From positions 1 to 64,000 of the IMG/VR virus record IMGVR_UViG_3300026209_000002: a stretch of 64,000 nt of DNA, one strand, 5' to 3'. Below, one piece after another: positions 4,027 to 55,755 of this stretch. The notes beneath the pieces were generated by a model. That model ran no database searches. It was given only the letters and a program-made list of their open reading frames with translations, and was not told the DNA's origin. The DNA comes from a virus. Position numbers and translations under genes: made by a program. Position 1 is the stretch's first letter. The number at the start of each line of letters is the position of its first letter.

Positions 4027-4557
4027 ATGATTAAGCTCAAAAAATTACTCACAGAACATGCTTGGAGTAGGAGTTTTGGTGAAAGTTTACCAACTTTAGA
4101 CTCAGTAAAGCAAAGACATCAAGAAAATAAAAAAACTACCTTAAATGAAGCTACACGTTGGATAATGGGTATGGAAGGACCAAATGGTAAAATAGTATCT
4201 ACTTACGGTCATTGGGATGGTTATCCTAAATATACAGGTAAAATGTTAAAAAAACATTATTCTAATACAGTTAAAGTAAAAGATTTATTGAAACTTGGTA
4301 AAGCTGGTATTTCTTCTATTAACAAAAAAATAAAAGGAACTAAAGACCATACATTTAATAGTCCTGAAAAAGATGTTAGTGTATTTTATGGTCGTGACAG
4401 GGGTGAGAAAACTTCTTCAATACAAAAATTTAAAAATAGAGATTCAATAAAATGGAATATGGGAGAAGAATATGCGTATATTTGGAATACTAAAGATAAT
4501 AAGTGGTATTATAGGTCGCGTCATTCGAATCCCCAAAAATGGACGGAGCTTAAATAA
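4027..4557 (+). CDS. Hypothetical protein with prohead-targeting-like leader
   Basis: A 176-aa basic protein of unknown function. It starts MIKLKKLLTEHA and then has TTLNEATRW at residues 37-45. Both LTE|H and LNE|A resemble the (L/I)-x-E cleavage motif of T4-type prohead protease, so residues 1-41 could be a removable leader and the mature chain would begin ATRWIMG. The same MIKLK start occurs in the genes at 19160 and 54808 and a variant at 5038, which suggests a shared N-terminal signal. The body (HWDGYPKYTG, MGEEYAYIWN, WYYRSRHS) has a repeated aromatic pattern reminiscent of small SH3-like or virulence-associated domains, but I cannot name a family. SD not obvious except AAGGA at 4016-4020. 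Confidence 0.6.
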   Translation: MIKLKKLLTEHAWSRSFGESLPTLDSVKQRHQENKKTTLNEATRWIMGMEGPNGKIVSTYGHWDGYPKYTGKMLKKHYSNTVKVKDLLKLGKAGISSINKKIKGTKDHTFNSPEKDVSVFYGRDRGEKTSSIQKFKNRDSIKWNMGEEYAYIWNTKDNKWYYRSRHSNPQKWTELK

Positions 4558-4558
4558 A

Positions 4559-5041
4559 ATGTTAACAACTTTTGATGAAATAATACAAATAACACTAGAC
4601 CACGAAGGTGGATATGTTCACGACCCGACTGATTTAGGTGGTGAAACTAATTTTGGCATAGCAAAACGATTCTATCCTGACGTAGATATTAAGAACCTAA
4701 CAGAAGATGGTGCAAAAGAAATCTACAAAAGAGATTATTGGGATAAGAATAAAGTTGATGATGTACCTGATGATTTAAAACATATCTTTTTTGATATGTG
4801 TGTGAATCAAGGTAGAGGAACTGCCGTAAAGATTTTACAACGAGCTATTAATGCAAAGGGTGGTGATTTAACAGTTGATGGTGGATTCGGTCCAGGTACA
4901 AAAGCTGCTTTGGCAAAACATACACCTGAATTAGATAGAGTTCGTTGTTACAGATTAAAACATTACTATGATTTAGTAAACAAGAAACCCGAACAAGAAC
5001 GATTTATATTTGGATGGTATAAAAGGGCATTGTCAGTATGA
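4559..5041 (+). CDS. GH108 N-acetylmuramidase endolysin with C-terminal peptidoglycan-binding region
   Basis: A 160-aa lysozyme-like protein. The GH108 signature LDHEGGY (catalytic Glu16) is followed by DPTDLGGETNFGI, as in ZliS/GH108 enzymes, and by YKRDYWDK and FFDMCVNQG. The C-terminal third contains DGGFGPGTKAAL, typical of the PG_binding_3 region that accompanies this family. It would cleave beta-1,4 bonds of peptidoglycan during lysis. I set the start at ATG 4559 because GGAG at 4545-4548 lies 10 nt upstream and the family similarity begins there; an in-frame extension from 4472 overlaps the previous gene and looks random. There is no signal peptide, so release to the wall would need a holin or other lysis protein. 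Confidence 0.88.
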   Translation: MLTTFDEIIQITLDHEGGYVHDPTDLGGETNFGIAKRFYPDVDIKNLTEDGAKEIYKRDYWDKNKVDDVPDDLKHIFFDMCVNQGRGTAVKILQRAINAKGGDLTVDGGFGPGTKAALAKHTPELDRVRCYRLKHYYDLVNKKPEQERFIFGWYKRALSV

Positions 5042-5310
5042 TTAGCTTAAAGTCTTTAATGAAAAATATGAAGGAAGCTAAAATTACTGCACCAAAGAAA
5101 GGTGTAGATACTCCACTTGACGCTAAGATACAAATACCTGGATATGGTGTTATGACACGTAAACAATTAAAGGGTGGTATGCAGAGAATAGTTACTGAAG
5201 TTTCTAAGTATTTGAAAAAAGGACAAGTAGAGAATGCTTATAATGTTTTGTATAAACAGAGTGTATTAAAGGGATTTTTAGAAACTGATATAAAACATAA
5301 CGGAAAATAA
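5038..5310 (+). CDS. Small hypothetical protein with internal-protein-like leader
   Basis: A 90-aa basic protein that overlaps the endolysin stop by 4 nt. The N-terminus MISLKSLMKNMKEAK is similar to the leaders at 4027, 19160 and 54808, and MKE|A at residues 11-14 would fit a relaxed prohead-protease site. The body has GYGVMTRKQLKGGMQRIV and a helical C-terminal half with no motif I recognise. Position between endolysin and the tandem-motif gene at 5313 suggests it belongs with the candidate head-internal proteins. Function unknown. Confidence 0.55.
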   Translation: MISLKSLMKNMKEAKITAPKKGVDTPLDAKIQIPGYGVMTRKQLKGGMQRIVTEVSKYLKKGQVENAYNVLYKQSVLKGFLETDIKHNGK

Positions 5311-5312
5311 TT

Positions 5313-5921
5313 ATGAAGATTAAAAAATCAAAACTTATAGAAATGATTCGTATTGAGTTGGAGGGATTCAAGAGTGATGCACAAAGGAGAGCTGCATTTG
5401 CTAGTGGATATAAGGCCAAAGGTAAGAAAAAGAAAAATAATGAATCCGTAAATGAAGGTAAGATGAATCTTTCATTTTTGAAAATTCAAACTAAAAATTT
5501 AGCAACGGATGTACAAGATTTGTTTATAGCAGTTAAAGGTGGTGATGAAGATGAAATTACATCTGAGTTAGACCAAGTTAAGTTTAGAATTGGTATGTTA
5601 AGAAAAAAAGGAATGGGATTAAGAGAATCCGTAAATGAAACTTTACCCAATAGGGTTTGGATGGATCTTCGAAAAAAATATAGTACGAATGAATTAAAAA
5701 GATTTTTTAAAAAAGAATCCGTAAATGAAGGTGGAATGGGTGTTTTATCGAAAGACCAGGCAGATATATTACAGGGGTTAGTGATGAAACATAAGAACAA
5801 AAATCCTAAAGCTATTTATAATGTTGTTATGAAAAGTCCACATTTTAAGGGAGTAGATAAAAAAGAGATGTTAGGATATATTCATGGGGCAATAGCTTTT
5901 TCAAAATATATGAAGATATAA
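5313..5921 (+). CDS. Modular basic protein with three ESVNE linkers (candidate head-internal polyprotein)
   Basis: This 202-aa protein is divided by three copies of ESVNE at residues 44-48, 105-109 and 135-139, each encoded by almost the same DNA (GAATCCGTAAATGAA at 5442, 5625 and 5715). They cut the chain into an N-terminal basic segment (SDAQRRAAFASGYKAKGKKK), an all-helical acidic/basic segment, a short segment and a helical C-terminal domain. V-N-E|G and V-N-E|T resemble (L/I)-x-E prohead-protease sites. No enzyme motif is visible. The gene abuts the modular gene at 5921 (1-nt overlap), which uses the same linkers. What I see is the repeat; processing and packaging into the head are inference. 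Confidence 0.6.
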   Translation: MKIKKSKLIEMIRIELEGFKSDAQRRAAFASGYKAKGKKKKNNESVNEGKMNLSFLKIQTKNLATDVQDLFIAVKGGDEDEITSELDQVKFRIGMLRKKGMGLRESVNETLPNRVWMDLRKKYSTNELKRFFKKESVNEGGMGVLSKDQADILQGLVMKHKNKNPKAIYNVVMKSPHFKGVDKKEMLGYIHGAIAFSKYMKI

Positions 5922-7819
5922 TGCCTGCTAAGTCTAAAGCTCAACAAAGATTTATGGGTATGGTTCACGCCTTTAATAAAGGTGAACTAAAAGGTTCAGA
6001 GGTATCTAAAGATGTAAAAGATGCCGCTAAATCTATGAAGAAGAAAGATACAAAAGATTTCGCTAAAACAAAACACAAGGGATTACCGAATAAAGTGAAA
6101 AAAGAAAATTTAATCAAATTAATTAAGTCTTATCTTAAACAAGAATCCTTAAAAGAAAGTGGTATTATGTACCGTGCTGGAGTGAAGAAATACGGAAAAG
6201 AAGGAATGACCAAAATTGTCCAAGCTGCGGGAAGAAAAGCGTCACATGCTGAAATAGGTAAGATTAAAGATAAGTATGATAAAACAAAGAAGGAATCTAC
6301 AGATGAAGGTTTTGGTGGAGATTTAAAAGGCAGTGATAAAAAGAAATTTGAAAAAGCTAGAAAAGAAAATGGTGAACAATTAGGATATACATTATCAGGA
6401 ACACCAGATGTAAAAGAAGAACGAGATTACAAGGCAGAATACAAAAAATATGGTTCATCTACTAAAGCAAAGAAATATAGAGCAGAATTAAACAAATATA
6501 ATCGTCAAAAAGGTACTTATGGTAATGGAGATGGTAAAGATGCTTCACATAAAGGTGGAAAGATAGTGGGATTTGAAGCAGAATCAAAAAATAGAGGTAG
6601 AGCAGAAAAAAGTCGTTTGAAAAAAGAATCCATAAATGAAGCTAGAACTATTAATGTTGAACCTAATTGGGAAGGTATGTGGAGATTTTTTAAGCAGATG
6701 GCAATAACTAACCCAAGAGATTGGAAACGAATGGAACGCACAATGGGTAGTGATTGGAAAAAAATAGATAAAATGGCACAACAAAAAGGATGGAAATTTG
6801 AATCAGTAAATGAAACTGTAATAAAAGAAAATCTAATGTCATTTTACAAATACATGGGTGATTTCTACGGAAAGAAAGGTATTTATCCTGATAAGAAAGG
6901 TAGGGATTTGAAGGTTGGGGATATAAACAAAGCCTTATCGGTTTATCTCAAGAAGTATGGAGCATCTGAATTCGAAGGTGATACTTTGGATAGAGAAAGA
7001 GTCCGTGATATTCTAATCAAGATGAGAAAGTTAGATCCTGATTATTCTAAAAAAGAATCCGTAACTGAAGGTAAAAATCCAAAGAGAGAAAAAGTTAAAA
7101 AAGATTTTAAGACATCTTTAAATTTTGCAAAGGGTGCTATAAGAAAAATTGAAACATTTATGAAATCAGATTATTGGGGAATGGCAGATAGATATGTAAC
7201 TGATAAACGAACTGGACTTGTATCTATTGTAAAAGATATGGAAAAATCTATGAACCAAATCATAAAAATGCCAGTAGATGAATCCATAAATGAAAGTGTT
7301 AGTAAAAGGATTACTGTAAAAGAAGTAAAGAAGTGGATGAAAACACTCGAAGAATTTAGATATAAGAGGATAAGTCCTGTAGATGCTCGTAGAGTTACTT
7401 CATTTATTAATAATAAATTAAAAGAAGAAGAATTACCACAAAGTTTACAGAAAAAATGGTCAGAAGCTAAATATAGTAGAGAAAAATATTTAGCAGCGAG
7501 GTATTTAAAATCAAATAAAAATACTATTAAAGAATCTAAAGATTGTTGTGATAATTGTAAAGAAGAAAAAACTTGTTGTTCTGTAAGTGAAGAGATACAA
7601 CCACAAGGTAATATTAAAAAAGTTCTTGATGTTGTAAAAAACAAACAACATACAAAAATTGGTGGAACTCTCATAGATGCTACGACAGCAGGTATGATGG
7701 CACAAGTATGGGATAAGGTAAACGATTCAAGTAAAGAAAAAATGAATAAGATGAATGTAAAACAACTCATTAATCTAATTTTAAAATTATGGAAAGCAGT
7801 AGGAACACCACGATTATGA
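5921..7819 (+). CDS. 632-aa string of small basic domains joined by xSxxE linkers (candidate internal polyprotein)
   Basis: The first 60 residues (KSKAQQRFMGMVHAF, DFAKTKHKGLP) match the DUF3008-type domain found alone or fused in many phages. The chain then runs through linkers ESLKE|S (75-79), ESTDE|G (125-129), ESINE|A (236-240), ESVNE|T (294-298), ESVTE|G (379-383), ESINE|S (454-458) and TIKE|S (535-538). Between them lie eight units of about 50-110 aa with unrelated sequence: one contains MYRAGVKKYGKEGM, one has a Gly/Lys-rich segment (GNGDGKDASHKGGK), one ends with a Cys cluster (CCDNCKEEKTCC, residues 542-553) followed by a helical domain. Most units are strongly basic. The linkers look like prohead-protease sites, so I infer a polyprotein cut inside the prohead. 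No catalytic motif was recognised. Confidence 0.65.
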   Translation: MPAKSKAQQRFMGMVHAFNKGELKGSEVSKDVKDAAKSMKKKDTKDFAKTKHKGLPNKVKKENLIKLIKSYLKQESLKESGIMYRAGVKKYGKEGMTKIVQAAGRKASHAEIGKIKDKYDKTKKESTDEGFGGDLKGSDKKKFEKARKENGEQLGYTLSGTPDVKEERDYKAEYKKYGSSTKAKKYRAELNKYNRQKGTYGNGDGKDASHKGGKIVGFEAESKNRGRAEKSRLKKESINEARTINVEPNWEGMWRFFKQMAITNPRDWKRMERTMGSDWKKIDKMAQQKGWKFESVNETVIKENLMSFYKYMGDFYGKKGIYPDKKGRDLKVGDINKALSVYLKKYGASEFEGDTLDRERVRDILIKMRKLDPDYSKKESVTEGKNPKREKVKKDFKTSLNFAKGAIRKIETFMKSDYWGMADRYVTDKRTGLVSIVKDMEKSMNQIIKMPVDESINESVSKRITVKEVKKWMKTLEEFRYKRISPVDARRVTSFINNKLKEEELPQSLQKKWSEAKYSREKYLAARYLKSNKNTIKESKDCCDNCKEEKTCCSVSEEIQPQGNIKKVLDVVKNKQHTKIGGTLIDATTAGMMAQVWDKVNDSSKEKMNKMNVKQLINLILKLWKAVGTPRL

Positions 7820-8244
7820 AAATAAGTGTAAAAGAATTAAAGCAAGCAATAAAAGAATCACCAGAAGCTTTTAATAATACGTTAACCTATAATGAATTAG
7901 AAGAAGTTATTCAAGAAGCATATGAAAATGGATTTTTTGAAGATATAACTTTGGAAGATATCGCTGATACAAAACAGTTTAGTACTATGATGGAAGCTTT
8001 TTTATCAGAACTTAAATTTAAACGAGTTATTAGAGGTAAGAAGATTTTTAAGAAAGTTATTTGTCCTAAAAATAAAAAGTTTGTTAAACCATTAAACAAA
8101 TGCGTTCAAAAATCTGCCAAAGAGAAAATCAAAAAGAAAAAAGCTATGAAAAAGGCCGCTATAAAGAGGCGTGGTAAAATGGGTATGATATTACGGAAAC
8201 GATTAAAGTCATTAAAGAAACGTGCAGCATTTGGTCTTAAATAA
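7816..8244 (+). CDS. Highly basic C-terminal-tail protein, possible DNA-binding internal protein
   Basis: A 142-aa protein; I use ATG 7816, which overlaps the previous stop (ATGA) and gives the leader-like start MKISVKELKQAIKES, rather than an in-frame start at 7789 inside the upstream gene. IKE|S at 12-15 and IQE|A further on fit the candidate protease motif. The first 70 residues are acidic and helical. The C-terminal 75 are very basic, with a CPKNKKFVKPLNKC pair of cysteines followed by runs of Lys and Arg (KKKKAMKKAAIKRRGKMG). This tail is a recurring element in T4-like marine phages. A role in condensing DNA in the head or escorting it on ejection is plausible but not shown. Confidence 0.55.
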   Translation: MKISVKELKQAIKESPEAFNNTLTYNELEEVIQEAYENGFFEDITLEDIADTKQFSTMMEAFLSELKFKRVIRGKKIFKKVICPKNKKFVKPLNKCVQKSAKEKIKKKKAMKKAAIKRRGKMGMILRKRLKSLKKRAAFGLK

Positions 8245-11200
8245 TGAACAAATTAACAGAATGGTTAACTAAACCCTTTATTGAAGATTTAAATGAGGAT
8301 GTAAATTTACCTATTAATGTTGGTGATACTGTTAAGATGGGTAAGTTTAAAAATAAAAAGGTTGTAGTTAAAAAAATAGACTGGAATGAAAAAGGTGATT
8401 TACTAATCAATGGTAGACCAGCCTTAAAATTTAGAATGACAAAAGATTCCAATCTTGATTTCAATAATAAATCAGAACAATTAAAAGAAGGTGTTGAGGA
8501 TAAAGGTATCTTTAAAGCAGTATTCTTAGCAGGTGGTCCAGGAAGTGGTAAGACATTTGTTAGTAGACAACTATTTGGTATGCCCGATAGTGTGAATATT
8601 AGTATGAGTGGTATGAAAATGGTTAACTCGGATAAAGAGTTAAAACATTTGTTAAAAAAATACGGATTCGGTACAGACTTAGATAAAATGCCTGATGATT
8701 TATTCAAACAACTTACAGACCCTACAGATAAAGATTATAGTGGTTTACGAGATTTTTCGAAAAGTCTAACTAAACAACGAAAGAAATTATATAAAAAAGG
8801 TAGACTTGGAATGATTATTGATGGTACAGGTCATAAGTGGAAAAATGTTAAAAGTGATAAAGTAGAATTAGAAAAACTTGGTTATGATACTTATATGATT
8901 TTTGTTGATACTTCATTAGAGGTGGCACAAAAAAGAAATCAAGAACGAGATAGAATTTTACCACCAAATTTGTTAAAGAAATCATGGCAAGATGTTCAGA
9001 AAAATCGTGGAGCATTTAAATCATTATTTAAAAACAATTTTATTGAAATTAAAAATAATGAAACATTAAATGATAAACAAATTGAGAAAAAATTTGGTAG
9101 TTTAACAAGAAAATATATTAATGTATTTATGAATAAACCAATTAAAAGTCAAATTGCTAAAAATTGGATTAGGAAACAACAGATATTAAAGAAAAACGAG
9201 TCTATTGGATTAGATGCTGGTGGTGGTATTATTAATGGTTCACCAGATTCTAAAAAAGTAAAGAAAAATAAAACTGATAGAATGAGTGGTTATGAAAAAG
9301 TTAGTGAAATTTTTCCAAAAGGGGCTGGTCGTAAGGTAAGTAAAGCTCTTCAAAAAAAATCACCCACAATCAAAAAAGTTGTTGGTATATATCCAGGTAG
9401 ATTTCAACCATTCGGTCCTCATCATAAAAAAACTTATGATTGGTTAAAGACACAAGTTGATGATGTTTATATAGTTACATCTAATCTTAAATCCTTACCA
9501 AGACACCCAATGAACTTTAAAGAAAAAGTTAGACATATGGTAAAAATGGGTATTCCAAAAAGTGAGATTAGTCAAGAGAAAAATTTATATGGTGTAAAGG
9601 ACGCATTAACGGGATATGATAAAGATACAACTGCAGTAATTTATGTTGTTGGAAAAAAAGATGCTGGTAGATTAAAATCTGGTGCATACTTTGATGATTA
9701 TAAAAAGAATAAGGATAGTATGGTGGGATTTAAAGAACGTGGATATATTCTCACAGCACCACACGTTGCAATGAAGGCCGCAGGTATGGAAGTTAGTGGA
9801 ACTTCTATGAGACAATTACTTGGGTCACCAGAATACGAAGATGATAGAAAACGGAGATTTAAAAAATTCTTTGGTTACTTTGATCAAGGTGTTTATAATA
9901 TGATGACTAATAAGTTTAAAAAGTTATTTGAATCAATAGATGATTTTTTAATTAATAACCCTGACACTATTCCAAATCTTTTAAACGAAGCATCTACCAC
10001 TACAGCATTTGGTATTGATGATGGACCTCCAACTTTTTATAATAGTTTTGGTGATTATAAAGTTATAGTTAATAAGTGGGTTGATGAACTTTATAGTGAT
10101 ATGGGATGGGAAGTAGTAAGTTATATGATAGGAGATAAAGCTATTGACCCAGGATTTGATTACACATCAAAGACTGATACCGTACCAGCTGTTGCTTATG
10201 GAAAAAGAGGTACAGGAGCGTATGGTGAAAGATTTGGAGAAAAGGATCCAATTAAAGCATATAAGAATCATATTTCATATGTGATAGATGGATTAGGATT
10301 TGAAGTTTTAGATTGGTTAGGATTTACTAAAGATGGTAAAGAGACTACAGGAGTTGATGTGGAAGTACCAGTAGGTTTTGGAGTAGATGGGAAGAATCAA
10401 AATACAGATAGAAAGAAAAATTTAGCACTTACATCAAAGGAAGATAAACAAGGTGATTCACTTACTGCAATTGATGCTAAGTTGGATATGAGAAAAAAGG
10501 GAGTTAAACAAACAATAGTTATACCACATAAAAAATCTCGTAAAAATGTAAAGGAAGTTCTTAATTTAGAAAAAGAAATTGAGTTATTAGTAGAAGGTGG
10601 AGCTTATGGACATATGGCACATCCGTTTGATGATAATAATTTAACGTTTGGGGATTTGAGAAACATAATTATAGATGGGTTAGGTGGAAAGTTAGATAGA
10701 GAAGATAATGTTACAGAGAAACTTGATGGACAAAACTTAATGGTAAGTTGGGTAGATGGAGAATTAAGAGCGGCTCGTAATAAAGGTCATTTGAAAAATC
10801 ACGGTAAAGCTGCTCCTACGATAAAAGGAGTTAAGAGTATTTTTTCTGGTAGAGGGAATATAGCAAAGGCATTCATTGGAGCTATGACGGATTTAGAAAA
10901 GGCGATAGGTAGATTAACAGATCCTCAAAAAGAAAAGATATTTGGTAATGGTAGTAAATGGATGAATTTAGAGATTATTTTTCCACAAACTGCTAATATT
11001 ATTGATTATGATATATCTGAAATAGTGTTTCATGGTACAGTAGAGTATAATAAAAGTGGTAGACCAATTGGACAACCAAGAGATTCAGCTCGTATGTTGG
11101 CAGGAATGATTAAACAAACAAACAATCATATACAGAAGATGTTTAAAATTGGTAAACCTAATTTTTTAACAGTTCCAAAATCTCAAGACTTTAGTAAAAA

Positions 11201-11822
11201 GAAAGCTAAGTATTTAAAGAAGTTAAATACATTACAAAAACAGTATGCGTTACGAAGTACAGATACTTTAGGAGAGTATCATAGAGCGTATTGGGAAGAA
11301 TATATTTTTAATGCGTCTAAACAATTTGATTTTAATTTAAAAAATAATCATTTAGTAGGTTTAGTAAATAGATGGGCGTTTTTTGATAAGACATATAAGA
11401 TATCTCAAATGAAAAAAGATTTTAAATCTGATCCTAAATGGTTAGATTGGGTATTATCTACAGATAAAGAAAATCATACAAAAATATCAAAGGAAAATAT
11501 TAAACCTTTTGAAGTTTTATTTTTTGAGGTCGGTTCAGAGATATTGAAAAACATTAGTGGATTCTTAGCAGTATCACCTGATAAAACTGTTTCGAAGATT
11601 AGAAAAGATGTTATTAAGTCAATGAAAGAATTACAGAGTAAACGTAATATAGATAAATTAAAGAATTTAAAAATACAAATAGAAAAACTAAAAGAAATTG
11701 GTGGATTAGACGCAGTTGTTCCAAGTGAAGGAATAGTGTTTAAGTATAAAGGAAATATTTATAAATTTACAGGAGCATTTGCACCAATTAATCAAATAAT
11801 TGGTAGTTTGAAATTTGGTTAG
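8244..11822 (+). CDS. Fusion: P-loop kinase + NMNAT-like nucleotidyltransferase + unknown domain + nucleotidyltransferase/ligase
   Basis: A 1192-aa multi-enzyme protein. Residues 93-110 hold a Walker A loop (AGGPGSGKT) of a polynucleotide-kinase/zeta-toxin-like P-loop domain, with a downstream IIDGTG strand (about 191). Residues 378-550 form a cytidylyltransferase-fold domain: YPGRFQPFGPHH replaces the usual HxGH, and VSGTSMRQ (517-524) matches the second NMNAT motif. Residues 585-780 are an unassigned domain. From about 785 to the end is a covalent nucleotidyltransferase (ligase) domain with the KxDG motif EKLDGQ (Lys826), LRAARNKGHLKN, and a late EGIVFKYKG matching motif V. Boundaries coincide with LKE82|G, LNE582|A and LVE784|G, which resemble the linkers of the two genes upstream. 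Likely nucleic-acid repair or nucleotide metabolism; packaging is inference. Confidence 0.75.
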   Translation: MNKLTEWLTKPFIEDLNEDVNLPINVGDTVKMGKFKNKKVVVKKIDWNEKGDLLINGRPALKFRMTKDSNLDFNNKSEQLKEGVEDKGIFKAVFLAGGPGSGKTFVSRQLFGMPDSVNISMSGMKMVNSDKELKHLLKKYGFGTDLDKMPDDLFKQLTDPTDKDYSGLRDFSKSLTKQRKKLYKKGRLGMIIDGTGHKWKNVKSDKVELEKLGYDTYMIFVDTSLEVAQKRNQERDRILPPNLLKKSWQDVQKNRGAFKSLFKNNFIEIKNNETLNDKQIEKKFGSLTRKYINVFMNKPIKSQIAKNWIRKQQILKKNESIGLDAGGGIINGSPDSKKVKKNKTDRMSGYEKVSEIFPKGAGRKVSKALQKKSPTIKKVVGIYPGRFQPFGPHHKKTYDWLKTQVDDVYIVTSNLKSLPRHPMNFKEKVRHMVKMGIPKSEISQEKNLYGVKDALTGYDKDTTAVIYVVGKKDAGRLKSGAYFDDYKKNKDSMVGFKERGYILTAPHVAMKAAGMEVSGTSMRQLLGSPEYEDDRKRRFKKFFGYFDQGVYNMMTNKFKKLFESIDDFLINNPDTIPNLLNEASTTTAFGIDDGPPTFYNSFGDYKVIVNKWVDELYSDMGWEVVSYMIGDKAIDPGFDYTSKTDTVPAVAYGKRGTGAYGERFGEKDPIKAYKNHISYVIDGLGFEVLDWLGFTKDGKETTGVDVEVPVGFGVDGKNQNTDRKKNLALTSKEDKQGDSLTAIDAKLDMRKKGVKQTIVIPHKKSRKNVKEVLNLEKEIELLVEGGAYGHMAHPFDDNNLTFGDLRNIIIDGLGGKLDREDNVTEKLDGQNLMVSWVDGELRAARNKGHLKNHGKAAPTIKGVKSIFSGRGNIAKAFIGAMTDLEKAIGRLTDPQKEKIFGNGSKWMNLEIIFPQTANIIDYDISEIVFHGTVEYNKSGRPIGQPRDSARMLAGMIKQTNNHIQKMFKIGKPNFLTVPKSQDFSKKKAKYLKKLNTLQKQYALRSTDTLGEYHRAYWEEYIFNASKQFDFNLKNNHLVGLVNRWAFFDKTYKISQMKKDFKSDPKWLDWVLSTDKENHTKISKENIKPFEVLFFEVGSEILKNISGFLAVSPDKTVSKIRKDVIKSMKELQSKRNIDKLKNLKIQIEKLKEIGGLDAVVPSEGIVFKYKGNIYKFTGAFAPINQIIGSLKFG

Positions 11823-16815: not shown

Positions 16816-17697
16816 ATGTCAAAAAAAGTTAGGCACGCGAAGCTTAAAAATACGGGTGTATTATTTGAAGTATTGACCCGTCAAGTAACAGCGGACATTA
16901 TTAGTAATAGAAATTCTAATGCTGTTAATGTCATTAAAGAGTTTTTTAATAAAGATAAAGAACTTGGTAAAGAATTAGAATTATATAATATTCTAACAAA
17001 TGAAACATATAACACAACAGAGAAAGCTACTAAGTTAGTAGAGGCAGTTGTGAAGTCTCGTCAGAAGCTAGCAAATTCTATATTAAGACGAGAAAAATAT
17101 AATTTAATTAAAGAGATTAAAAACAATTATGATGTTAATGAATTGTTTGCAACTCGTATTCCAAATTATAAAAGATTAGCTTCAATTTATAAATTGTTTG
17201 AACATGAAGCAACAGATAAAACTCTTGTACCAAATGAGTATGTAGATGTTCATTCTTATCTAGTAGAATGTATATCCTCAAGTAAAGTTGTTAAAAAAGA
17301 AACTGCAACTGGTGTAATTGGTGAGGATAAAGATGTTCGTCTGTTAGCATATACTCTAATGATAGAAAAATTTAATAAAAAGTATTCTACTTTAAATGAA
17401 AGACAGAAACGTGTATTGAAAAATTATATTAATAATGTTTCTAATACAAATAATTTACATGAATATGTTTCTGGTGAAGTAACTGAAATAAAAAAAGAAT
17501 TGACAACTTTGTTACCAGATATTGATGATGAAGTTACAAAGATAAAGTTATCTGAAGTTATTAAACAAGCAGATACAATAGTTAGTAAGAAAACAATTAG
17601 TGAAGAGAATCTTACTAAGTTGATGCGGTACTATGAACTCATACAGGAAATAAAGAATGTCCATAAGCGAAAGTCAACTAAGACAATTAATTCGTAA
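16816..17697 (+). CDS. Conserved hypothetical head-region protein between portal and prohead protease
   Basis: A 293-aa mostly helical protein. Recognisable phrases are KLKNTGVLFEVLTRQVTADI and YALFATRIPNYK-like text (VNELFATRIPNYKRLASIY), which I associate with a conserved protein in marine T4-like phages at the same position, but I know no function. No catalytic or metal-binding motif is visible. It has a good GGAG and the candidate promoter just upstream, so it is the first gene of a new transcription unit. The next gene starts inside it (41-nt overlap). T4 has the small core proteins gp67 and gp68 at this location, but the length here is different, so equivalence is not claimed. Confidence 0.65.
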   Translation: MSKKVRHAKLKNTGVLFEVLTRQVTADIISNRNSNAVNVIKEFFNKDKELGKELELYNILTNETYNTTEKATKLVEAVVKSRQKLANSILRREKYNLIKEIKNNYDVNELFATRIPNYKRLASIYKLFEHEATDKTLVPNEYVDVHSYLVECISSSKVVKKETATGVIGEDKDVRLLAYTLMIEKFNKKYSTLNERQKRVLKNYINNVSNTNNLHEYVSGEVTEIKKELTTLLPDIDDEVTKIKLSEVIKQADTIVSKKTISEENLTKLMRYYELIQEIKNVHKRKSTKTINS

Positions 17698-18277
17698 GTT
17701 AGTAGGAGAAGTCTTAAAAGAATTAGATGAGGCTTCTGTTACAGGTAACGTACCTGGGTATAATACACCTAATGCTTTTACGAAAAAATCAGATGTTAAA
17801 AAGAAAAAGAAACATATGGCAGATTTAATTGGGTTCACTTTAGCAGAGGCAGCTAAGACGAAAAAATTTTTACTTGTAGTACCTAAAAATATTTATGGTG
17901 GTGTTAGAGCGGTATTTGATTCTAAAGCAGCAGCACAACGATATATGGAAGACAATATACCATCCGAAGCTTGGAAACATGTTAGTATAAAACCAACAAT
18001 GTTACCAGTAGTACATCCAGCCGAATCTGTAACTGAAGGTAAATACCACGATTACAGAAATGATGAGTCTTTATCACCTAAACAAAAAATTGGACAATCT
18101 ATTCGAGAAATTAGAGATAGGTTGAATGAATTGGATAAAAGTATTAAAATGAATGTTCGTTTGAAAAATGAATTGGGAGTAGATTCTCGACAGTATTGGA
18201 AACGAACCAAAGGAGCTTTAACCAAAATAAGTGAAAGATTAGTTAAGATGGCTAAACGTGTAGGGGAGATGTATTAA
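17657..18277 (+). CDS. Modular head-region protein with several protease-site-like motifs
   Basis: A 206-aa protein whose start lies 41 nt inside the upstream gene. The N-terminus is an amphipathic helix (SQLRQLIRKLVGEVLKELDE) ending in LDE25|A; LAE64|A and ESVTE127|G follow. The last uses the same GAATCTGTAACTGAAGGT type of DNA as the linkers in the 5313 and 5921 genes. The piece after residue 26 (SVTGNVPGYNTPNAF) is a phrase common in T4-like marine phages. The final third is a charged coiled-coil-like helix (IREIRDRLNELDKSIK). I infer a prohead-core or internal protein processed by the neighbouring protease; function otherwise unknown. Confidence 0.55.
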   Translation: MSISESQLRQLIRKLVGEVLKELDEASVTGNVPGYNTPNAFTKKSDVKKKKKHMADLIGFTLAEAAKTKKFLLVVPKNIYGGVRAVFDSKAAAQRYMEDNIPSEAWKHVSIKPTMLPVVHPAESVTEGKYHDYRNDESLSPKQKIGQSIREIRDRLNELDKSIKMNVRLKNELGVDSRQYWKRTKGALTKISERLVKMAKRVGEMY

Positions 18278-18528
18278 TGTCCGTTAGTTTGAAGGAGTTT
18301 CTTGAGGCCTCAGATCCAGATATTTTAACAGAGGCTACCAATTATAAAAAACTGGTTAAGAATATAGAACAAGCTGAGTCACGATTTCGTTTAACTATGT
18401 GGGACTTGGTACAAGCATTATCTAAGGAATTTGATAGTACACAAGCTAATAAAGTATCAAGGTCATATAAACAGTACGTAACAAGGTTTATGATGGACTT
18501 AATGAAATTAATGAAAAGGATGAAGTAA
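18277..18528 (+). CDS. Small prohead-core-like protein
   Basis: An 83-aa protein immediately before the prohead protease gene (1-nt overlaps on both sides). It starts MSVSLKEFLEASDPDILTEATNY, which has FLE|A at residues 8-11 and LTE|A at 17-20, the same style as the capsid-targeting leaders of T4 internal proteins (T4 leaders also resemble MKTYQEFIAE). The C-terminal half is basic and helical (QYVTRFMMDLMKLMKRMK). By position and size it could take the place of T4 gp67/gp68 core proteins, but I see no sequence proof. Confidence 0.55.
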   Translation: MSVSLKEFLEASDPDILTEATNYKKLVKNIEQAESRFRLTMWDLVQALSKEFDSTQANKVSRSYKQYVTRFMMDLMKLMKRMK

Positions 18529-19160
18529 TGAAACAACTTATAGTAGATTATTTACCATTCGAAATACAACCTGAACAAATTAATGAATCCATGAAACAAA
18601 ACAATGGTAAATTAATTGTTAAAGGTGTATTACAAAGAGCAGAAGCTAAAAATCAAAATGGTAGAGTATATCCAAAAGAGATTCTTATGAGAGAATCAAA
18701 AAAGTATGCTGAAAATTTTATTGATGAGAAAAGAGCAATGGGTGAATTAGACCATCCAGAGAGTTCAGTAGTTAATCTACAAAATGTATCTCATAATGTA
18801 ACTGAAATGCATTGGAATGGTGATGATTTGTATGGAACAGTTGAAGTTTTAGGAACACCAAGTGGTAATATTTTAAAAGAGTTGTTTAAATCAGGTATTA
18901 AGTTAGGAATTAGTTCTCGTGGTATGGGTTCAGTAGAAGCTATTGATGAAGCTGAAGATGCCGCACAACCAGATACAATGGAAGTACAACCTGATTTTGA
19001 ACTTATTGCATTCGATTTCGTATCTAATCCATCTACTCAAGGAGCTTTTATGTATCCAATGTCTGAGGGTGTTGATAGAACAACTAAAACACAAGGTAGA
19101 ACTTGTGGTGATTATTGTAAAACAGAACATGTTATCAATAAAATAATGAGGAACGAATAA
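18528..19160 (+). CDS. gp21: Prohead core protease (gp21-like serine protease)
   Basis: A 210-aa protein, the same length as T4 gp21 (about 212). It shows the herpes-assemblin-like phage protease pattern: NGRVYPKEIL near 44, catalytic His in GELDHPESS (H76), nucleophile Ser in LGISSRGMG (S129/S130), and the late strand IAFDFVSNPSTQGAFM. It digests scaffold and internal proteins and trims the capsid protein during prohead maturation. Its own N-terminal region contains INE|S at residues 18-21, a candidate self-processing site. It is embedded in a run of small genes with 1-nt overlaps. This enzyme is the key to the polyprotein hypothesis for the genes at 4027-12000. Confidence 0.92.
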   Translation: MKQLIVDYLPFEIQPEQINESMKQNNGKLIVKGVLQRAEAKNQNGRVYPKEILMRESKKYAENFIDEKRAMGELDHPESSVVNLQNVSHNVTEMHWNGDDLYGTVEVLGTPSGNILKELFKSGIKLGISSRGMGSVEAIDEAEDAAQPDTMEVQPDFELIAFDFVSNPSTQGAFMYPMSEGVDRTTKTQGRTCGDYCKTEHVINKIMRNE

Positions 19161-19463: not shown

Positions 19464-19838
19464 ATGTCTAACATTGAAAATAAGAATGAGTGGGAAAGAA
19501 AATTTCGTCAATACATGATAGCTAAACATGATGGAGATGAACTTAACGAGATGACAGTACATAATATGGCGTATAGTTCACCAGAAGCAGCTAAAGAAGC
19601 AGCTGCCGCTACTAAGAAATTATCTGATGAGTTGGGTAAAGTTTCACAAAAAATAATTAAATCTATGATAAACGATATCAAAGGACATAAGTATAGTCCG
19701 TTAGATTTAATGAGGTCATTTAAAGAAGGTAGTGTGAGAGATTCACATGCGTATGAAAAAGATTTTTTAACAAGCCTATGGCATAGAGCTTCAAATAGAT
19801 TTAGAAAGTATATGCCTAAAGGTAAAATGTCATTTTAG
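19464..19838 (+). CDS. Hypothetical head-region protein
   Basis: A 124-aa protein. The N-terminal 30 residues (NEWERKFRQYMIAKHDGDELNE) end in LNE|M, again like the protease motif though with Met after Glu. A helical Ala-rich centre (SPEAAKEAAAATKKLSDELG) and a basic C-terminus (WHRASNRFRKYMPKG) follow. No family recognised. It is separated from its neighbours by 4 and 10 nt and has no convincing SD of its own, so probably expressed by coupling. Confidence 0.45.
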   Translation: MSNIENKNEWERKFRQYMIAKHDGDELNEMTVHNMAYSSPEAAKEAAAATKKLSDELGKVSQKIIKSMINDIKGHKYSPLDLMRSFKEGSVRDSHAYEKDFLTSLWHRASNRFRKYMPKGKMSF

Positions 19839-19848
19839 GAGAGTTAAA

Positions 19849-20490
19849 ATGAAAAAAGACAAGAGAATAAAATTATCCGAATGGATTATGGCAGGTGGAT
19901 TTGTTAACAAACCATCTATGGTAGACATGGATATGTTTAGAACAAAAATTAAACCAAACCAAGAGAAACAAATTAAATTATCTTCTCTAATAGATGAGAA
20001 GTTTGGTAGACGGACTGAAGAGAAGATTGATGAGGGTGAATTTTTTGAATCATTAGCTAAATTTGGTCATTTAGGTAAAGCTATTTATCGTGAAGATGAT
20101 TTGACAAGTGTAGCAGAAGCATTATCTTTTATAGCGAAGGCTTCTCGTCAACATGCTTTACAAGAAACAGAAGAATGGTTTGATAAGATTACAGTAAATC
20201 GTAATATGAAAGAATTGAATACACTCTCCGATTCATTTCGAAAGATTTCTACTGAAGCACAAGCCCTTCAAGAAAGAATGACTGCATTGTATGAAGATAT
20301 GGGACACATTCTTGGTAGATATTATGATTTAGATGAAGCTTTAGATAAGGTAGACCCAAGTAAAGTAGAACCTGAAGATGATTTTGAAGATAGAGAAGAT
20401 AAAGATATAGATAATGATGGTGATACAGATGATTCTGATGAGTATTTACATAAAAAAAGACAAGCTATTACTAAAGCAATGGGGAAATAA
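19849..20490 (+). CDS. Hypothetical head-region protein with C-terminal calcium-loop-like motif
   Basis: A 213-aa protein with GGAG 7 nt before the ATG. It begins KDKRIKLSEWIMAGGFVNKPS, then has helical segments (FRKISTEAQALQERMTALYEDMG). Near the C-terminus, DIDNDGDTDDSDEYLHKKR has the D-x-D-x-D-G-x spacing of an EF-hand or dockerin calcium loop, followed by a basic end; this tail occurs at the end of several unrelated phage proteins I know, suggesting a mobile functional tag. Position before S21 and scaffold genes suggests a head or scaffold-associated protein. Function unknown. Confidence 0.5.
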   Translation: MKKDKRIKLSEWIMAGGFVNKPSMVDMDMFRTKIKPNQEKQIKLSSLIDEKFGRRTEEKIDEGEFFESLAKFGHLGKAIYREDDLTSVAEALSFIAKASRQHALQETEEWFDKITVNRNMKELNTLSDSFRKISTEAQALQERMTALYEDMGHILGRYYDLDEALDKVDPSKVEPEDDFEDREDKDIDNDGDTDDSDEYLHKKRQAITKAMGK

Positions 20491-22139: not shown

Positions 22140-23771
22140 ATGTCACAAAAGGCAATTCAAGAAATAATGGGTGGCTATAACCCAGTACAAGAACGCAGGA
22201 AAGAAACTGAGAAGCTTGTACAGAAATGGGAAGCCACAGGATTACTTGAAGGTCTTAAATCCGAAAACAAGATACACAGTATGGCTCAGCTACTTGAGAA
22301 CCAGGCTCGTCAGTTAATTGACGAATCTTCTCGCGTAGGTGGTCCAGGTACAGAAGAATGGAGTGGAGTTGCACTTCCTCTAGTCAGACGTATCTTTGGT
22401 GAATTGGCAGCACAGGAATTCGTTTCTGTTCAACCAATGAACTTACCAAGTGGTCTTATTTTCTATTTGGACTTCAAGTATGGCACAGCTAACCAAGGCA
22501 TGAGTGTTGGTGAAGATGTGTATGGTAACACTTCCGCATCAGGTGACGCAACAGGCGGCCTATACGGACAAGGCAAATTTGCCTACTCAACTAAGCAGCA
22601 AGAAACTTCTGCTCAATCAATTCACGCATCAAGTGTTGGATCAGGTACATTTACCACAGGTTCAGTTGCTTGGTCTGATGTTGATTTTGAACCAGATCTT
22701 TCTGCTTCTTCTCTAACAACAACTGGTGCAGATAATTCACTTAACAAAATTACAGTATCCACAGCAGCTATGACACGTCCTGACACAGAAGCAGTTCGTT
22801 CAATGGTAATCTCTGGTTCTGGTTTTGATGAGTATTTCCCTGCATATACAAAACTATCAGGTTCATCTGATACTGAAGTAGTGTTTGTTGTTAGACAATC
22901 TGCTGCAGGTACTATCGGTGCATTAACCGTTAAATACTCTGCACAACCTACAGACTCAACTCGTGGTGATTTCGAAGATACACCAACTGAACCAGCAACT
23001 GATCTTTCAATTCCAGAAATTGATATTCAATTGCGTCAAGTTAGTATCGTCGCTAAAACCCGTAAGTTAAAAGCTGTATGGACTCCTGAGCTTGCTCAAG
23101 ACCTTAACGCTTATCATAGTGTTGACGCTGAAGCTGAGTTAACAGCAATGTTATCTGAGTATGTAACAATGGAAATCGATCTAGAAATCCTTGATATGTT
23201 ACGCGCTAACGCAAATGCTAAGACTGAAAGATGGTCAGCAAGAGTCGGATATGAATACGACGCTAATTCAGGTGCATGGGCAGCAACAAGCGATAATGCT
23301 TCTGCTTATACAAAAGGAACTTGGTTCCAGACATTAGGTAACAAGATACAATCAGTTTCTAATGCTATTCATCAGAAAACCCTTCGTGGTGGTGCAAACT
23401 TTATAGTTGTTTCTCCTGAAACAGCAACCATCATCGAGAGTATTCCAGGATACGCTGCAGATTCAGATGGCGATGCCTCAAACAATTCATTCGCAATGGG
23501 TGTACAAAAGATAGGTGCTCTTAATAACAGATATACTGTTTACAAGAACCCTTACTTCACCGAGAATGTAATTCTTGCTGGTTTCCGCGGGTCTAACTTC
23601 CTCGAAACAGGTGCAGTATATGCTCCATATGTTCCGTTGATAATGACTCCACTTGTTTACGATCCTTCGAACTTTACACCACGTAAAGGTGTAATGACTC
23701 GTTACGCTAAGAAGATGGTTCGTCCAGAATTCTATGGCGAGATTATCGTAGGCGATGTCAACTACGTTTAA
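22140..23771 (+). CDS. gp23: Major capsid protein (gp23-like)
   Basis: A 543-aa protein, near the T4 gp23 length (521). The N-terminal propeptide (IMGGYNPVQERRKETEKL) ends at LIDE62|S63, in the position of the T4 cleavage site after residue 65; GPGTEEWSGVALPLVRRIF then starts the mature chain. Other hallmarks are QPMNLPSGLIFYLDFKYG, SIVAKTRKLKAVWTPELAQDL, YHSVDAEAELTAMLS and the C-terminal PLVYDPSNFTPRKGVMTRY and KMVRPEFYG. It builds the icosahedral shell. SD AGGAGATAAGG lies just upstream, and a strong terminator follows, as expected for the most abundant product. Codon use is visibly less AT-biased than in neighbouring genes (many CGT, GGC, TTC codons). Confidence 0.97.
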   Translation: MSQKAIQEIMGGYNPVQERRKETEKLVQKWEATGLLEGLKSENKIHSMAQLLENQARQLIDESSRVGGPGTEEWSGVALPLVRRIFGELAAQEFVSVQPMNLPSGLIFYLDFKYGTANQGMSVGEDVYGNTSASGDATGGLYGQGKFAYSTKQQETSAQSIHASSVGSGTFTTGSVAWSDVDFEPDLSASSLTTTGADNSLNKITVSTAAMTRPDTEAVRSMVISGSGFDEYFPAYTKLSGSSDTEVVFVVRQSAAGTIGALTVKYSAQPTDSTRGDFEDTPTEPATDLSIPEIDIQLRQVSIVAKTRKLKAVWTPELAQDLNAYHSVDAEAELTAMLSEYVTMEIDLEILDMLRANANAKTERWSARVGYEYDANSGAWAATSDNASAYTKGTWFQTLGNKIQSVSNAIHQKTLRGGANFIVVSPETATIIESIPGYAADSDGDASNNSFAMGVQKIGALNNRYTVYKNPYFTENVILAGFRGSNFLETGAVYAPYVPLIMTPLVYDPSNFTPRKGVMTRYAKKMVRPEFYGEIIVGDVNYV

Positions 23772-24670: not shown

Positions 24671-24710
24671 TACTGACTAATTATAACAATTTTTTAATTG
24701 GAGAATATTG

Positions 24711-25271
24711 ATGAAATTGAAATCATATTTAAATGCAGGAACATTGATCACGATGGAAAACGGAGACCAAAAAGCAATAGAAAGCTTAACAGAAGGTGAT
24801 AAGGTACAAACTTACCTAACAAGTGAAGATTTTGATATGGCTCATATTGGTGAAAATGAACAAAATGTATGTACAATATCTGATGTTATTGAAGCGGAGG
24901 TCGACGCAACAGATATAGTAAAATTAAACTTTGAAGATGATGTAAGTTTAATAACGACAAACGACCAACCAATTTATGGAGCATCAGAAGAAACGGGTTG
25001 GTTAGTTCCTAATGTAGAAGCTATGGAAAAAATTATCGGTAGACAAAATATTGATGAAAGTGAAGACGTTGAAGGTACAGGAGAGTTAGCACAAGAGTTA
25101 CAAGTAGGTAACACTGTACATCAAGATGATGGGGATACCGTTGCAGATATTACATTAGAATCTATTGAAAATGTAGAAGGCATTCATACTATGTATTGTT
25201 TGGGAATAACCGAAGAAAATGCATCGTTTGTTTTTGCAAATAATATTTTAATATGTGCAGGAACGTTATAA
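24711..25271 (+). CDS. Hint-like (Hedgehog/intein fold) protein, without catalytic Cys
   Basis: A 186-aa protein. Its start LNAGTLITMENGDQKAIESL is arranged like block A of inteins and Hedgehog Hint domains (xxGTxIxxxDGxxxxIxxL), followed by EGDKVQTY. The middle LITTNDQPIYG is in the place of block B (TxxHP). The end, FVFANNILICAG, is like block G (FxANGIxVHN). The block A nucleophile Cys or Ser is Ala9, and block B His is Gln, so protein splicing or autocleavage is not expected. Start at ATG 24711 (a TTG 3 nt earlier is less likely). It lies next to another Hint-like gene in the neck region; I infer a virion protein using the Hint fold. Confidence 0.6.
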   Translation: MKLKSYLNAGTLITMENGDQKAIESLTEGDKVQTYLTSEDFDMAHIGENEQNVCTISDVIEAEVDATDIVKLNFEDDVSLITTNDQPIYGASEETGWLVPNVEAMEKIIGRQNIDESEDVEGTGELAQELQVGNTVHQDDGDTVADITLESIENVEGIHTMYCLGITEENASFVFANNILICAGTL

Positions 25272-25290
25272 TTCATATTAAGGAAAAATA

Positions 25291-54807: not shown

Positions 54808-55755
54808 ATGATTAAACTTAAAGATTTATTAATGGAATCCACTTATGCTCCCTCTAAACAAGCTGGGCCGAGTTGGATAGATAATGAGTGGTATCCCGCT
54901 CATACAAAAACAGTATTGAATTATGTACGGAGAGGAGAATACATACCTCTTACACCTGCAACTGTGGAGAAAGCACTTGGTAAAAAGATACCTGTAAAAT
55001 CATTTCACATCACAGGACCTGATGGTTTATCAAAAGTCAAGGGTGTACTTAATAGAAAAAAATCCATATCTACATTTACAGCAACTCACGAATCTGAAGC
55101 ATTAGCTAAAGGTCGTGGTGTTCAAACAGGTATGGGTGGTATTATATTTTATGTAGAGGGACATTTATTAGCACAAAGAAGTATGGATTTTGATACAACA
55201 CCTGATAAGCAAGGTCGTAGATGGGTAAGTGCTTTTCATGTGTTTGATGGAAAACCTGAAATATGGGGGAAGGCTTTGAAAGCTGCAAAAATTGATTATG
55301 GTTCTATTGATTCTAAAATTACTAAAATAGAAAGAGAATATCATGATAGATGGATGGACTTACCCTCAGATGACCCTAATCATCTTGAATATAATGAGTA
55401 TAAAGAACAGGCTAAAAAAGCAGTAGGACCTGTAGTTGCAAAATTTGTAAAAGATTTTATTGATGTGGCAAATAAAACTATAATCAAAAATAAAAAAATA
55501 TTTAAAAAGAGTTTGATTGATTCCGATGTTAACAAAAAAACTGCTTGGTGGAATGAACTTCTTGTCTATGATACAAAGATAATTGATTTCTTCGTGATGA
55601 GTAGACTTATGACAACAGACAATGGTTGGAAAATACAGAGTGAGATAGAAAAATTAGCATCAGTAGCAAGTGGTAGTAATCCAATAACTATTGGAACACC
55701 AGTTCAATTTAGAAAATGGTTTAAAAAACGAAAAGGTAAAATTCACAAAGGATAG
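54808..55755 (+). CDS. Hypothetical protein with MIKLK leader, candidate head-internal effector
   Basis: A 315-aa protein. The leader MIKLKDLLMES|TYAPS has LME10|S11, like capsid-targeting leaders of T4 internal proteins. The segment VKSFHITGPDGLSKVKGVLNR followed by KSISTFTATHESEA resembles a domain found in marine phage proteins that I cannot name; the His and Ser-Thr-Phe-Thr pattern is reminiscent of ADP-ribosyltransferase-like folds, a weak analogy (T4 Alt and ModA/B are ADP-ribosyltransferases and Alt is head-packaged). A GGATAATATT repeat occurs twice just upstream (54779-54807). Function unknown. Confidence 0.45.
   Translation: MIKLKDLLMESTYAPSKQAGPSWIDNEWYPAHTKTVLNYVRRGEYIPLTPATVEKALGKKIPVKSFHITGPDGLSKVKGVLNRKKSISTFTATHESEALAKGRGVQTGMGGIIFYVEGHLLAQRSMDFDTTPDKQGRRWVSAFHVFDGKPEIWGKALKAAKIDYGSIDSKITKIEREYHDRWMDLPSDDPNHLEYNEYKEQAKKAVGPVVAKFVKDFIDVANKTIIKNKKIFKKSLIDSDVNKKTAWWNELLVYDTKIIDFFVMSRLMTTDNGWKIQSEIEKLASVASGSNPITIGTPVQFRKWFKKRKGKIHKG

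Follow-up and report, generated by a model that had tools for sequence, protein, structure and literature searches.

Does a phage gene that joins many unrelated small domains in one frame specify a single working protein, or a precursor that is cut into many? This question is raised by three genes starting at positions 5313, 5921, and 8244 of the window, the 64,000-nucleotide (nt) stretch of DNA analyzed here, which comes from a marine, T4-like phage (positions 1 to 64,000 of IMG/VR record IMGVR_UViG_3300026209_000002). We consider it probable (about 0.78) that they encode head-internal polyproteins, which are cut by the gp21-type (S77) protease and whose pieces are packed and ejected. Polyprotein is meant here in an operational sense: one frame, protease-type sites at the borders, and modules that are separately encoded elsewhere. 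All features given below lie on the plus strand, and a slash marks the position after the P1 residue.

Three modular genes and their linkers

The first chain gene (5313..5921) encodes 202 amino acids (aa) in four segments, which are divided by three ESVNE linkers: ESVNE/G at residues 44-48 (5442..5456), ESVNE/T at 105-109 (5625..5639), and ESVNE/G at 135-139 (5715..5729). All three are encoded by exactly the same 15-mer, GAATCCGTAAATGAA. The first-pass annotation had listed these linkers, together with seven in the second chain gene (5921..7819; 632 aa), and all ten were found. Those of the second gene are ESLKE/S (75-79; 6143..6157), ESTDE/G (125-129; 6293..6307; with Thr as a weak P3 residue), ESINE/A (236-240; 6626..6640), ESVNE/T (294-298; 6800..6814), ESVTE/G (379-383; 7055..7069), ESINE/S (454-458; 7280..7294), and TIKE/S, with IKE as P3-P1 at residues 536-538 (7526..7534). 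One more border, VKE/E at 164-166 (6410..6418), was absent from the earlier list. It separates two independently moving modules; thus, this chain has nine modules, the first of which is DUF3008 (PF11450, E 3.6e-9), and not the eight basic domains originally counted. All nine are indeed basic, with net charges of +1 to +13.

The fusion gene (8244..11822; 1192 aa) was analyzed using Pfam/PHROG, a PDB sequence match, AlphaFold, and Foldseek. Its N terminus reads MNKLTEWLTKPFIEDLNE/D, with a DLNE/D site at residue 18. A short beta domain (21-67) is followed by LKE/G at residue 82 (8481..8489), a P-loop kinase (~83-313), an NMNAT-like nucleotidyltransferase (~376-563; PDB sequence match to NMNAT), LNE/A at residue 582 (9981..9989), a segment comprising residues 583-783, LVE/G at residue 784 (10587..10595), and a ligase-like module (785-1192). 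As had been proposed, the three internal sites mark predicted domain borders: in the AlphaFold model they lie in low-confidence interdomain stretches (low pLDDT at 68-89, 564-601, and 689-797) and are not predicted to be buried in folded domains. The model of the 632-aa chain was poor (pLDDT 38, three input sequences) and is silent on linker burial.

The 632-aa chain contains six ESxxE motifs versus 0.27 expected (maximum of three in 5000 shuffles), and the 202-aa chain three versus 0.05, a number reached in none of 5000 shuffles. ES[LIVMT]xE occurs 10 times in these genes versus once in the other genes of the window (p=1e-6). A rival reading takes the products for late or accessory proteins of the cytoplasm with no role in the head, whose site-like sequences reflect composition. 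The general motif [LIVM]xE[GAS] fits this idea, its density in these genes being only ~2.8-fold that of the window's other genes, and the decoy [LIVM]xK[GAS] is enriched to the same degree because the proteins are lysine-rich; the general density was dropped as evidence. However, lysine-rich composition does not explain the ES[LIVMT]xE enrichment, and the 53 kb upstream in the same phage hold one ESxxE and no leader. Leaders, modules shared with core genes, and calibration by the protease (all described below) also argue against a cytoplasmic role, which we regard as extremely improbable, although in one relative (a 131-kb record with Gp23 present and S77 not detected) the chain linker is 83 kb away from gp23.

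Module exchange at the linkers

Among relatives, 108 non-redundant chains yielded 527 segments (median, 71 aa) in 248 families, and 372 of the 419 neighbor pairs were distinct. Modules of the 632-aa chain recur in other proteins with new neighbors, often at 60-94% identity (the exception is 384-458), and segment 140-202 of gene 5313 was found in other chains beside different neighbors. In an unmasked test with decoys, 267 protein homology breakpoints fell on [LIVMT]xE/[GASTN] versus 125 expected (z=14); with twelve decoy residues at P1, coincidence was not raised (ratios 0.55-1.15). This test superseded a first one with masked sites, which was weaker and prone to a masking artefact. A 65-row MAFFT alignment including module fragments was misaligned and left out. 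One module has homologues in T7-like cyanophages, where they occur as small stand-alone proteins; that of P-SSP7, the one such sequence examined, has no LxE border, which agrees with the exchange of cleavable modules but as a single case does not amount to a control.

The same pattern was seen in DNA. The 15-bp linker sequence was in frame in 79 of 79 occurrences, and it has the most distinct contexts among all 15-mers in ~1.4 Mb. An independent DNA-only scan of viral contigs found 148 of 151 occurrences in frame, none in another frame, and three outside ORFs. DNA breakpoints lay at most 4 codons from ES[LIVMT]xE in 63 of 186 cases, versus 13.2 expected and a maximum of 24 in 500 shifts. When the 45-bp flanks of linker pairs were compared, only one flank was common in 55 pairs and both in 10. 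For example, the linker at 5625..5639 shares its downstream flank (100% identity) with the relative L006 and has an unrelated upstream flank, while that at 5715..5729 shares its upstream flank (100%) with L006 and differs downstream. Homology thus switches exactly at the linkers, showing that they are also exchange seams. Furthermore, the linker Ser codon is TCC in 56% versus 4%; linker conservation is therefore partly at the DNA level and not all attributable to a protease. Both the conservation as DNA and the exchange seam had been missed in the first-pass annotation.

A linker conserved as a DNA seam stays similar in amino acid sequence even without a protease. The chains could accordingly be passive modular proteins, which work uncut at full length in the head or in the cell and whose linkers are flexible spacers and DNA seams; the TCC preference, the shared 15-mer, and its position at exchange points agree with this. 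However, a spacer or seam needs neither a hydrophobic P3 residue nor Glu at P1, and decoy residues were not enriched. Borders that lack the 15-mer keep [LIV]xE by means of other DNA, as do LKE, LNE, and LVE of the fusion, with Glu582 unchanged throughout an alignment of 33 sequences despite variable flanks. The borders of the protease itself and the site in the capsid protein share the linker form, and leaders on unrelated proteins end alike at residue 10. On balance, passive chains are unlikely.

Enzymes fused here are separate genes behind leaders in other phages. In kinase-bearing relatives, E/G before the kinase is retained regardless of the upstream partner: the kinase follows [LIV]xE/G with a leader upstream in HTVC008M, Melnitz, and four further relatives, and with another domain upstream in the window's fusion and in Atu_ph07, where the border reads EVTE/GVNDKHIFKA. 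A stand-alone ligase-like module in LR756500 begins MKFLKSYEEFLNE/NLILE/GG, and the ligase border of Mel-JY01 is IIAE/GG. Not every border is canonical: a GFGG module is preceded by E/G in 9 of 9 contexts, with variable P3, and of 10 contexts of an HNH-like module, 4 show [LIVMF]xE before it. In place of the LVE/G ligase border, 10 relatives have a Shine-Dalgarno sequence and an ATG (AGGAG-N-ATG before GGAYGH); in these relatives without LxE directly at the border, translation apparently starts internally. This swap had also escaped the earlier reading.

Head protease, core genes, and leaders

The genome encodes a T4-type (gp21/S77) prohead protease at 18528..19160 (Peptidase_S77; PF03420, E 2.1e-27), whose own borders are QINE/S (residue 20) and MSE/G (residue 180). 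The N-terminal border reads [IV]xE/[SA] (INE/S-type) in 33 of the 33 relatives listed, and the C-terminal border carries a comparable site. The major capsid protein Gp23 (22140..23771; E 1e-75) carries the cleavage-type site LIDE/S at residue 62, as had been claimed, and LI[DT]E/[SA] is kept in all eight sequences compared, that of the window among them. The L/I-x-E form of the linkers matches these sites.

Genes flanking the protease in the window serve as chain modules in relatives. The core-gene candidate between portal and protease (17657..18277) has a CTS-like N terminus and an ESVTE linker at residues 123-127, and the C-terminal part of its product reappears as the last module of chains. 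The core gene adjoining the protease (18277..18528; MSVSLKEFLE/A) has a homologue as C-terminal chain module in five relatives, including L006, and the core-region gene at 19464..19838 has one as last chain module in two. Co-occurrence of chain and protease was searched in whole records: S77 was detected in 12 of the 20 long records, the remaining ones being fragments. For chains starting with DUF3008, shorter stretches are uninformative, because most end before the protease.

A MIKLKxLL-type start was found in 81 non-redundant ORFs of relatives versus 1.85 expected, on 28 unrelated body families, many of the ORFs being small and lying in the corresponding regions; [LIVMA]xE is present in 77 of the 81, and Glu stands at residue 10 in 57. 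The consensus, MIKLKxLLxE with Glu10, resembles the leaders of T4 internal proteins. Targeting of T4 IPIII requires no more than its first 10 residues, of which residues 8 and 10 control processing, and Asp at position 10 of the T4 CTS blocks it (PMC9026906). Two ORFs of the window have a leader ending in (L/I)xE, as do the 10-19-residue targeting leaders of T4-type internal proteins: a candidate head-internal protein at 4027..4557 (MIKLKKLLTE..FGE/SLPTL, common to unrelated ORFs) and the ORF at 54808..55755 (MIKLKDLLME/S), a homologue of which is a module within longer fusions in five relatives. Assignment of the latter as an ADP-ribosyltransferase was dropped, as the motif resemblance had no Pfam or PDB support. 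Further candidate head-internal proteins are encoded at 5038..5310 (MISLKSLMKNMKE/A) and by a basic ORF between chain and fusion (7789..8244), relatives of which also adjoin chains in two other records. At the N termini of the products of genes 5313 and 5921, a canonical MIKLK leader was not found; that of 5921 consists of DUF3008 and an amphipathic stretch ending in SLKE/S. The route by which the chains enter the core is therefore a guess.

Proteomics of S-SM1 virions detected a leader-bearing nucleotidyltransferase (PMC3037559), which begins MKKFSAFLNE/A. Profile comparison did not confirm its homology to the NMNAT-like domain of the fusion (E 0.16), so that it serves as evidence by analogy of kind and leader. 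A link of the fusion's ligase-like domain to the S-SM1 proteins failed in profile comparison (E 0.55) and was rejected. For Atu_ph07, 29 proteins of the cluster CDS 31-76 were detected in virions (PMC6102473). AUZ94865, which bears the kinase and by counting corresponds to CDS 53, belongs to this cluster and may be one of the 29; it was set aside as direct proteomic support.

Delivery into the host would also be expected if the chains were of the polyvalent-protein type, packaged and injected as single multidomain effectors that either remain uncut or carry a peptidase of their own that cuts them. Proteins of that class comprise 2-15 domains, with injection predicted (PMC5512222), and ORFs 19160 and 54808 gave weak, sub-threshold matches to Large polyvalent protein-associated domains. 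However, the LPD3 and LPD13 matches are below threshold and not common to relatives, and the modules of ~71 aa have S77-type sites between them. A Pfam scan of chains and fusion for hallmark polyvalent domains revealed no embedded metallopeptidase, nor was any peptidase domain found at a lenient cut-off. We consider uncut or self-cut effectors highly unlikely.

Processing of the chains as polyproteins, the central proposal of the first-pass annotation, is supported by shuffling at the sites, the matching borders of the protease, leaders on unrelated ORFs, and protease-flanking genes that act as chain modules. The seam looks exactly like a site of the phage's own head protease; thus, one precursor probably becomes many small proteins. 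From modules, borders, seam exchange, the likeness to the protease's borders, and leaders on sister genes, all read from sequence, we infer packaging, cleavage, and ejection of the three proteins as follows. Many small, mostly basic modules would be translated as a single chain, to which the fusion adds a P-loop kinase, an NMNAT-like nucleotidyltransferase, and a ligase-like enzyme. The chain would be recruited into the prohead core, and the S77 protease would cut the [L/I/V]-x-E/small linkers during head maturation. The freed proteins would share the head with the DNA and enter the host by ejection, as T4 IPI-III and Alt do. As a DNA seam, the linker serves for in-frame module exchange between phages, each exchange remaking a predicted cleavage site. 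It is reasonably likely that one short DNA sequence encodes both the exchange seam and the head-protease site, so that recombinant chains are automatically cleavable and one precursor delivers an interchangeable protein set. Least certain are the roles of the modules, which by analogy to T4 IPI* may lie in anti-defense or host takeover; the kinase, ligase, and nucleotidyltransferase possibly act in nucleic acid repair.

If this is right, marine T4-like phages have a combinatorial cargo system with polyprotein logic in a DNA phage, in which swaps always recreate the cutting site and one recruited precursor supplies each particle with as many as twelve small injected proteins, or even more. Such a system would account for a great many small domains of ocean viruses that lack annotation and would offer a large supply of candidate injected anti-host or anti-defense proteins with exact predicted ends.

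Comparison with known systems

Like RNA-virus polyproteins, the predicted chains combine one precursor, short repeated sites, and several mature proteins; in contrast, they belong to a DNA phage, their cutting is proposed to occur inside the prohead, and their modules are freely reordered. With the polyvalent proteins of phages and conjugative elements (Iyer et al. 2017), they share many unrelated domains per polypeptide, combinatorial architectures shuffled between elements, and predicted delivery with the genome. Polyvalent proteins have embedded peptidases or act uncut, whereas the present chains and fusion yielded no embedded peptidase and point to an external head protease. The ejection proteins of phiKZ, 201phi2-1, and SPN3US are similar in that many head-internal proteins undergo Glu-directed, S77-like maturation. 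However, 13 of the 14 mapped SPN3US sites remove N-terminal propeptides, the motif is A/S-x-E, and the published descriptions examined for these three phages are without chains of interchangeable modules.

The closest likeness is to T4 IPI-III and Alt, with a protease of the Peptidase_S77 family, the L/I-x-E motif, and a 10-residue, Glu-ended leader on unrelated small proteins. As in T4, diverse bodies follow a conserved leader, and the 76 aa of IPI* compare with the median module length of 71 aa. T4 differs in having one protein per gene and terminal propeptides, while here up to ~15 modules share a frame with sites between them, and the linker also serves for exchange as a conserved DNA sequence. 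We regard the chains as a probable variant of the T4 internal-protein system.

Linkers and module borders in the chain genes

The genes at 5313 (a 202-aa chain), 5921 (a 632-aa chain) and 8244 (a 1192-aa fusion with kinase, NMNAT-like and ligase-like modules) adjoin. The first-pass annotation had proposed that xSxxE|(G/A/S/T) linkers split them into modules and would be cut by the gp21-type head protease (the bar marks the predicted cut after Glu), and the ORFs and linkers were found where it had placed them. The 632-aa protein contains six ESxxE motifs, whereas shuffling predicts 0.27 and none of 5000 shuffles exceeded 3; the 202-aa protein contains three, with 0.05 predicted. The border list for gene 5921 was correct but incomplete: it lacked VKE|E at residue 166, which counts as an extra border because in relatives residues 130-166 travel separately from residues 167-240. 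Some module borders are non-canonical. The loose motif [LIVM]xE[GAS] alone proves little, since the decoy [LIVM]xK[GAS] showed the same enrichment in these lysine-rich genes. In contrast, ES[LIVMT]xE was counted 10 times in these genes and once in the other genes of the window.

The fusion carries three sites, with Glu at residue 82 (LKE|G), 582 (LNE|A) and 784 (LVE|G). Although the linker around it varies, Glu582 does not change across 33 orthologues, and the AlphaFold model places all three sites inside low-confidence interdomain stretches; the model of the 632-aa chain was uninformative. A Glycosyl hydrolase 108 endolysin (4472-5041; E 4e-25) is encoded amid the candidate head-internal genes.

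Module exchange at the linkers

Among relatives, represented by sequences fetched from viral contigs, chain segments reappear at up to 94% identity, in new orders and in otherwise unrelated proteins. We divided 108 non-redundant chains into 527 segments of 248 families; 372 of the 419 neighbor pairs were distinct. In these chains, DUF3008-like modules come first and a few families come last. Homology breakpoints fell at [LIVMT]xE|[GASTN] at 2.1 times the random-position rate (z 14), and decoys with twelve other residues at P1 gave ratios of 0.55 to 1.15.

The linker is also conserved as DNA. The serine codon of ES[VI]NE linkers is TCC in 56% of cases, compared with 4% elsewhere. In the approximately 1.4 Mb fetched, no other 15-mer had as many distinct flanking contexts as GAATCCGTAAATGAA, which was in frame 0 of an ORF in all 79 cases. 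When the viral collection was scanned with the 16-mer GAATCCGTAAATGAAG, a search independent of protein homology, at least 151 matches lay in fetched stretches; among the matches listed, 148 of 151 were in frame 0, 3 were outside ORFs and none was in another frame, and the proteins were chains of up to 1133 aa. The two sets partly overlap because some contigs occur in both. Conservation was confined to one 45-bp flank (identity of 80% or more, with the other flank unrelated) in 55 linker pairs and extended to both flanks in 10. DNA breakpoints lay within 4 codons of a linker in 63 of 186 cases (13.2 expected; maximum, 24 in 500 shifts). Comparison of gene 5313 with the relative L006 gives a clear example: at linkers 105 and 135, the flanks that face into the segment enclosed by them match completely, and the neighbors on either side are exchanged. 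Thus, part of the linker constancy reflects a seam for DNA exchange and not a protease site.

At the ligase border, before GGAYGH, ten distinct relatives (L046, L052, L054, L078, L083, L085, L086, L088, L091 and L114) carry an in-frame (A/G)GGAG-N-ATG, a Shine-Dalgarno sequence and start codon within the fusion ORF, in place of LxE|GG. Apparently, a protease-type site was swapped for a translation start at exactly this position. The putative ribosome-binding site and start codon indicate that the border is functional, and their sequence suggests a second way to free the ligase-like module.

The head protease as candidate cutter

From the sequences, we infer that the linkers are candidate sites of the gp21-type head protease of the phage. 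This is based on the borders of the protease, the leaders, shared modules, the contexts of the kinase, Glu582, the fusion model and a precedent in S-SM1 virions. The window, part of an IMG/VR record of 67.7 kb, covers the virion genes of a T4-like phage. Its terminase-like (13356) and portal-like (14939) genes were assigned by sequence and gene order, and family searches confirmed an S77 protease (18528..19160; E 2e-27) and Gp23 (22140; E 1e-75). The N-terminal border of the protease is [IV]xE|[SA] in 33/33 relatives listed, mostly INE|S, as in the linker. Sites of this type also occur at the C-terminal border of the protease and in the capsid protein. S77 was detected in 12 of 20 long records, and most of the remainder are fragments without Gp23. 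Two records contain Gp23 with no S77 detected: G003, where the linker gene lies far from gp23 amid leader-bearing ORFs, and G021, which ends soon after Gp23.

The MIKLKxLL-type leader was found in 81 non-redundant ORFs (1.85 expected), in front of 28 body families; 77 contain [LIVMA]xE and 57 have Glu at residue 10. For T4 IPIII, a stretch of ten residues is enough for targeting, and processing depends on residues 8 and 10 (PMC9026906). Chains 5313 and 5921 lack a canonical leader. Genes 18277 and 19464, which adjoin the protease, are the last modules of chains in relatives, and leader-bearing ORF 54808 is a module of longer fusions. The kinase is part of the fusion in the window. In HTVC008M, Melnitz and several contigs it occurs singly after a leader, and in Atu_ph07 it follows another domain; in these varied settings it is preceded by [LIV]xE|G. 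In LR756500, the ligase-like module likewise occurs singly, after a T4-like leader. The nucleotidyltransferase T4-GC190, present in S-SM1 virions (PMC3037559), begins with MKKFSAFLNE|A. Profile comparison did not confirm its homology to the domain of the window fusion; it is therefore a precedent of the same kind and not a claimed homologue.

Several further loci were recorded. The jumbo-phage protein of Atu_ph07 (MF403008; L131, 2272-4608) has a CTS-like start, MKWNDLNE|A, followed by a domain that by eye appears ADP-ribosyltransferase-like, by EVTE|G and by the kinase found in the window fusion. Two adjoining ORFs share this type of start and of domain. The reverse strand of L170 (2998-5187) encodes four leader-bearing ORFs in a row, the first a chain with leader and SVNE linkers. 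On a near-identical 105-kb contig (G001), the 53 kb directly upstream of the head region (L123-L125; three stretches, ~17,600 aa) contain no MIKLK leader and one ESxxE; many radical-SAM, sugar-epimerase and GDSL-like ORFs, assigned by eye, apparently form a surface-glycan island in a myovirus. Two successive ORFs 3' of the capsid gene (24708-26109) have, by eye only, Hint/intein-like starts (GTLITMENGDQKAIESLTEGDKVQTY; GTMITMYHEDGSYQKPIEEVQEGDIIKTF). The C-terminal motif DIDNDGDTDDSDEYLHKKRQAITKAMGK of 19849-20490 has matches in several families of phage proteins, one of them a cytidyltransferase PHROG, and a similar stretch is present in S-SM1 gene 191.

Module functions and known systems

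By fold, the kinase resembles polynucleotide and adenylate kinases, and stretch 376-435 of the fusion weakly matches NMNAT chains (E 0.004). A sub-threshold Pfam hit and a K-x-D-G motif make another module look ligase-like, and the longer fusion in L058 can be read as carrying an additional candidate tRNA-nucleotidyltransferase. Our guess is that the set may be nucleic-acid repair cargo. For the small modules, the precedent in T4 is IPI*, which is injected and inhibits a restriction enzyme (PMC3012670).

DUF3008 had zero matches in the open-access literature searched, which shows how sparse the writing on the subject is, and no description of head-internal module chains cut by a head protease was found in that literature. 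The closest known systems are the T4 internal proteins, the ejection proteins of giant phages (PMC10052503) and polyvalent proteins (PMC5512222).
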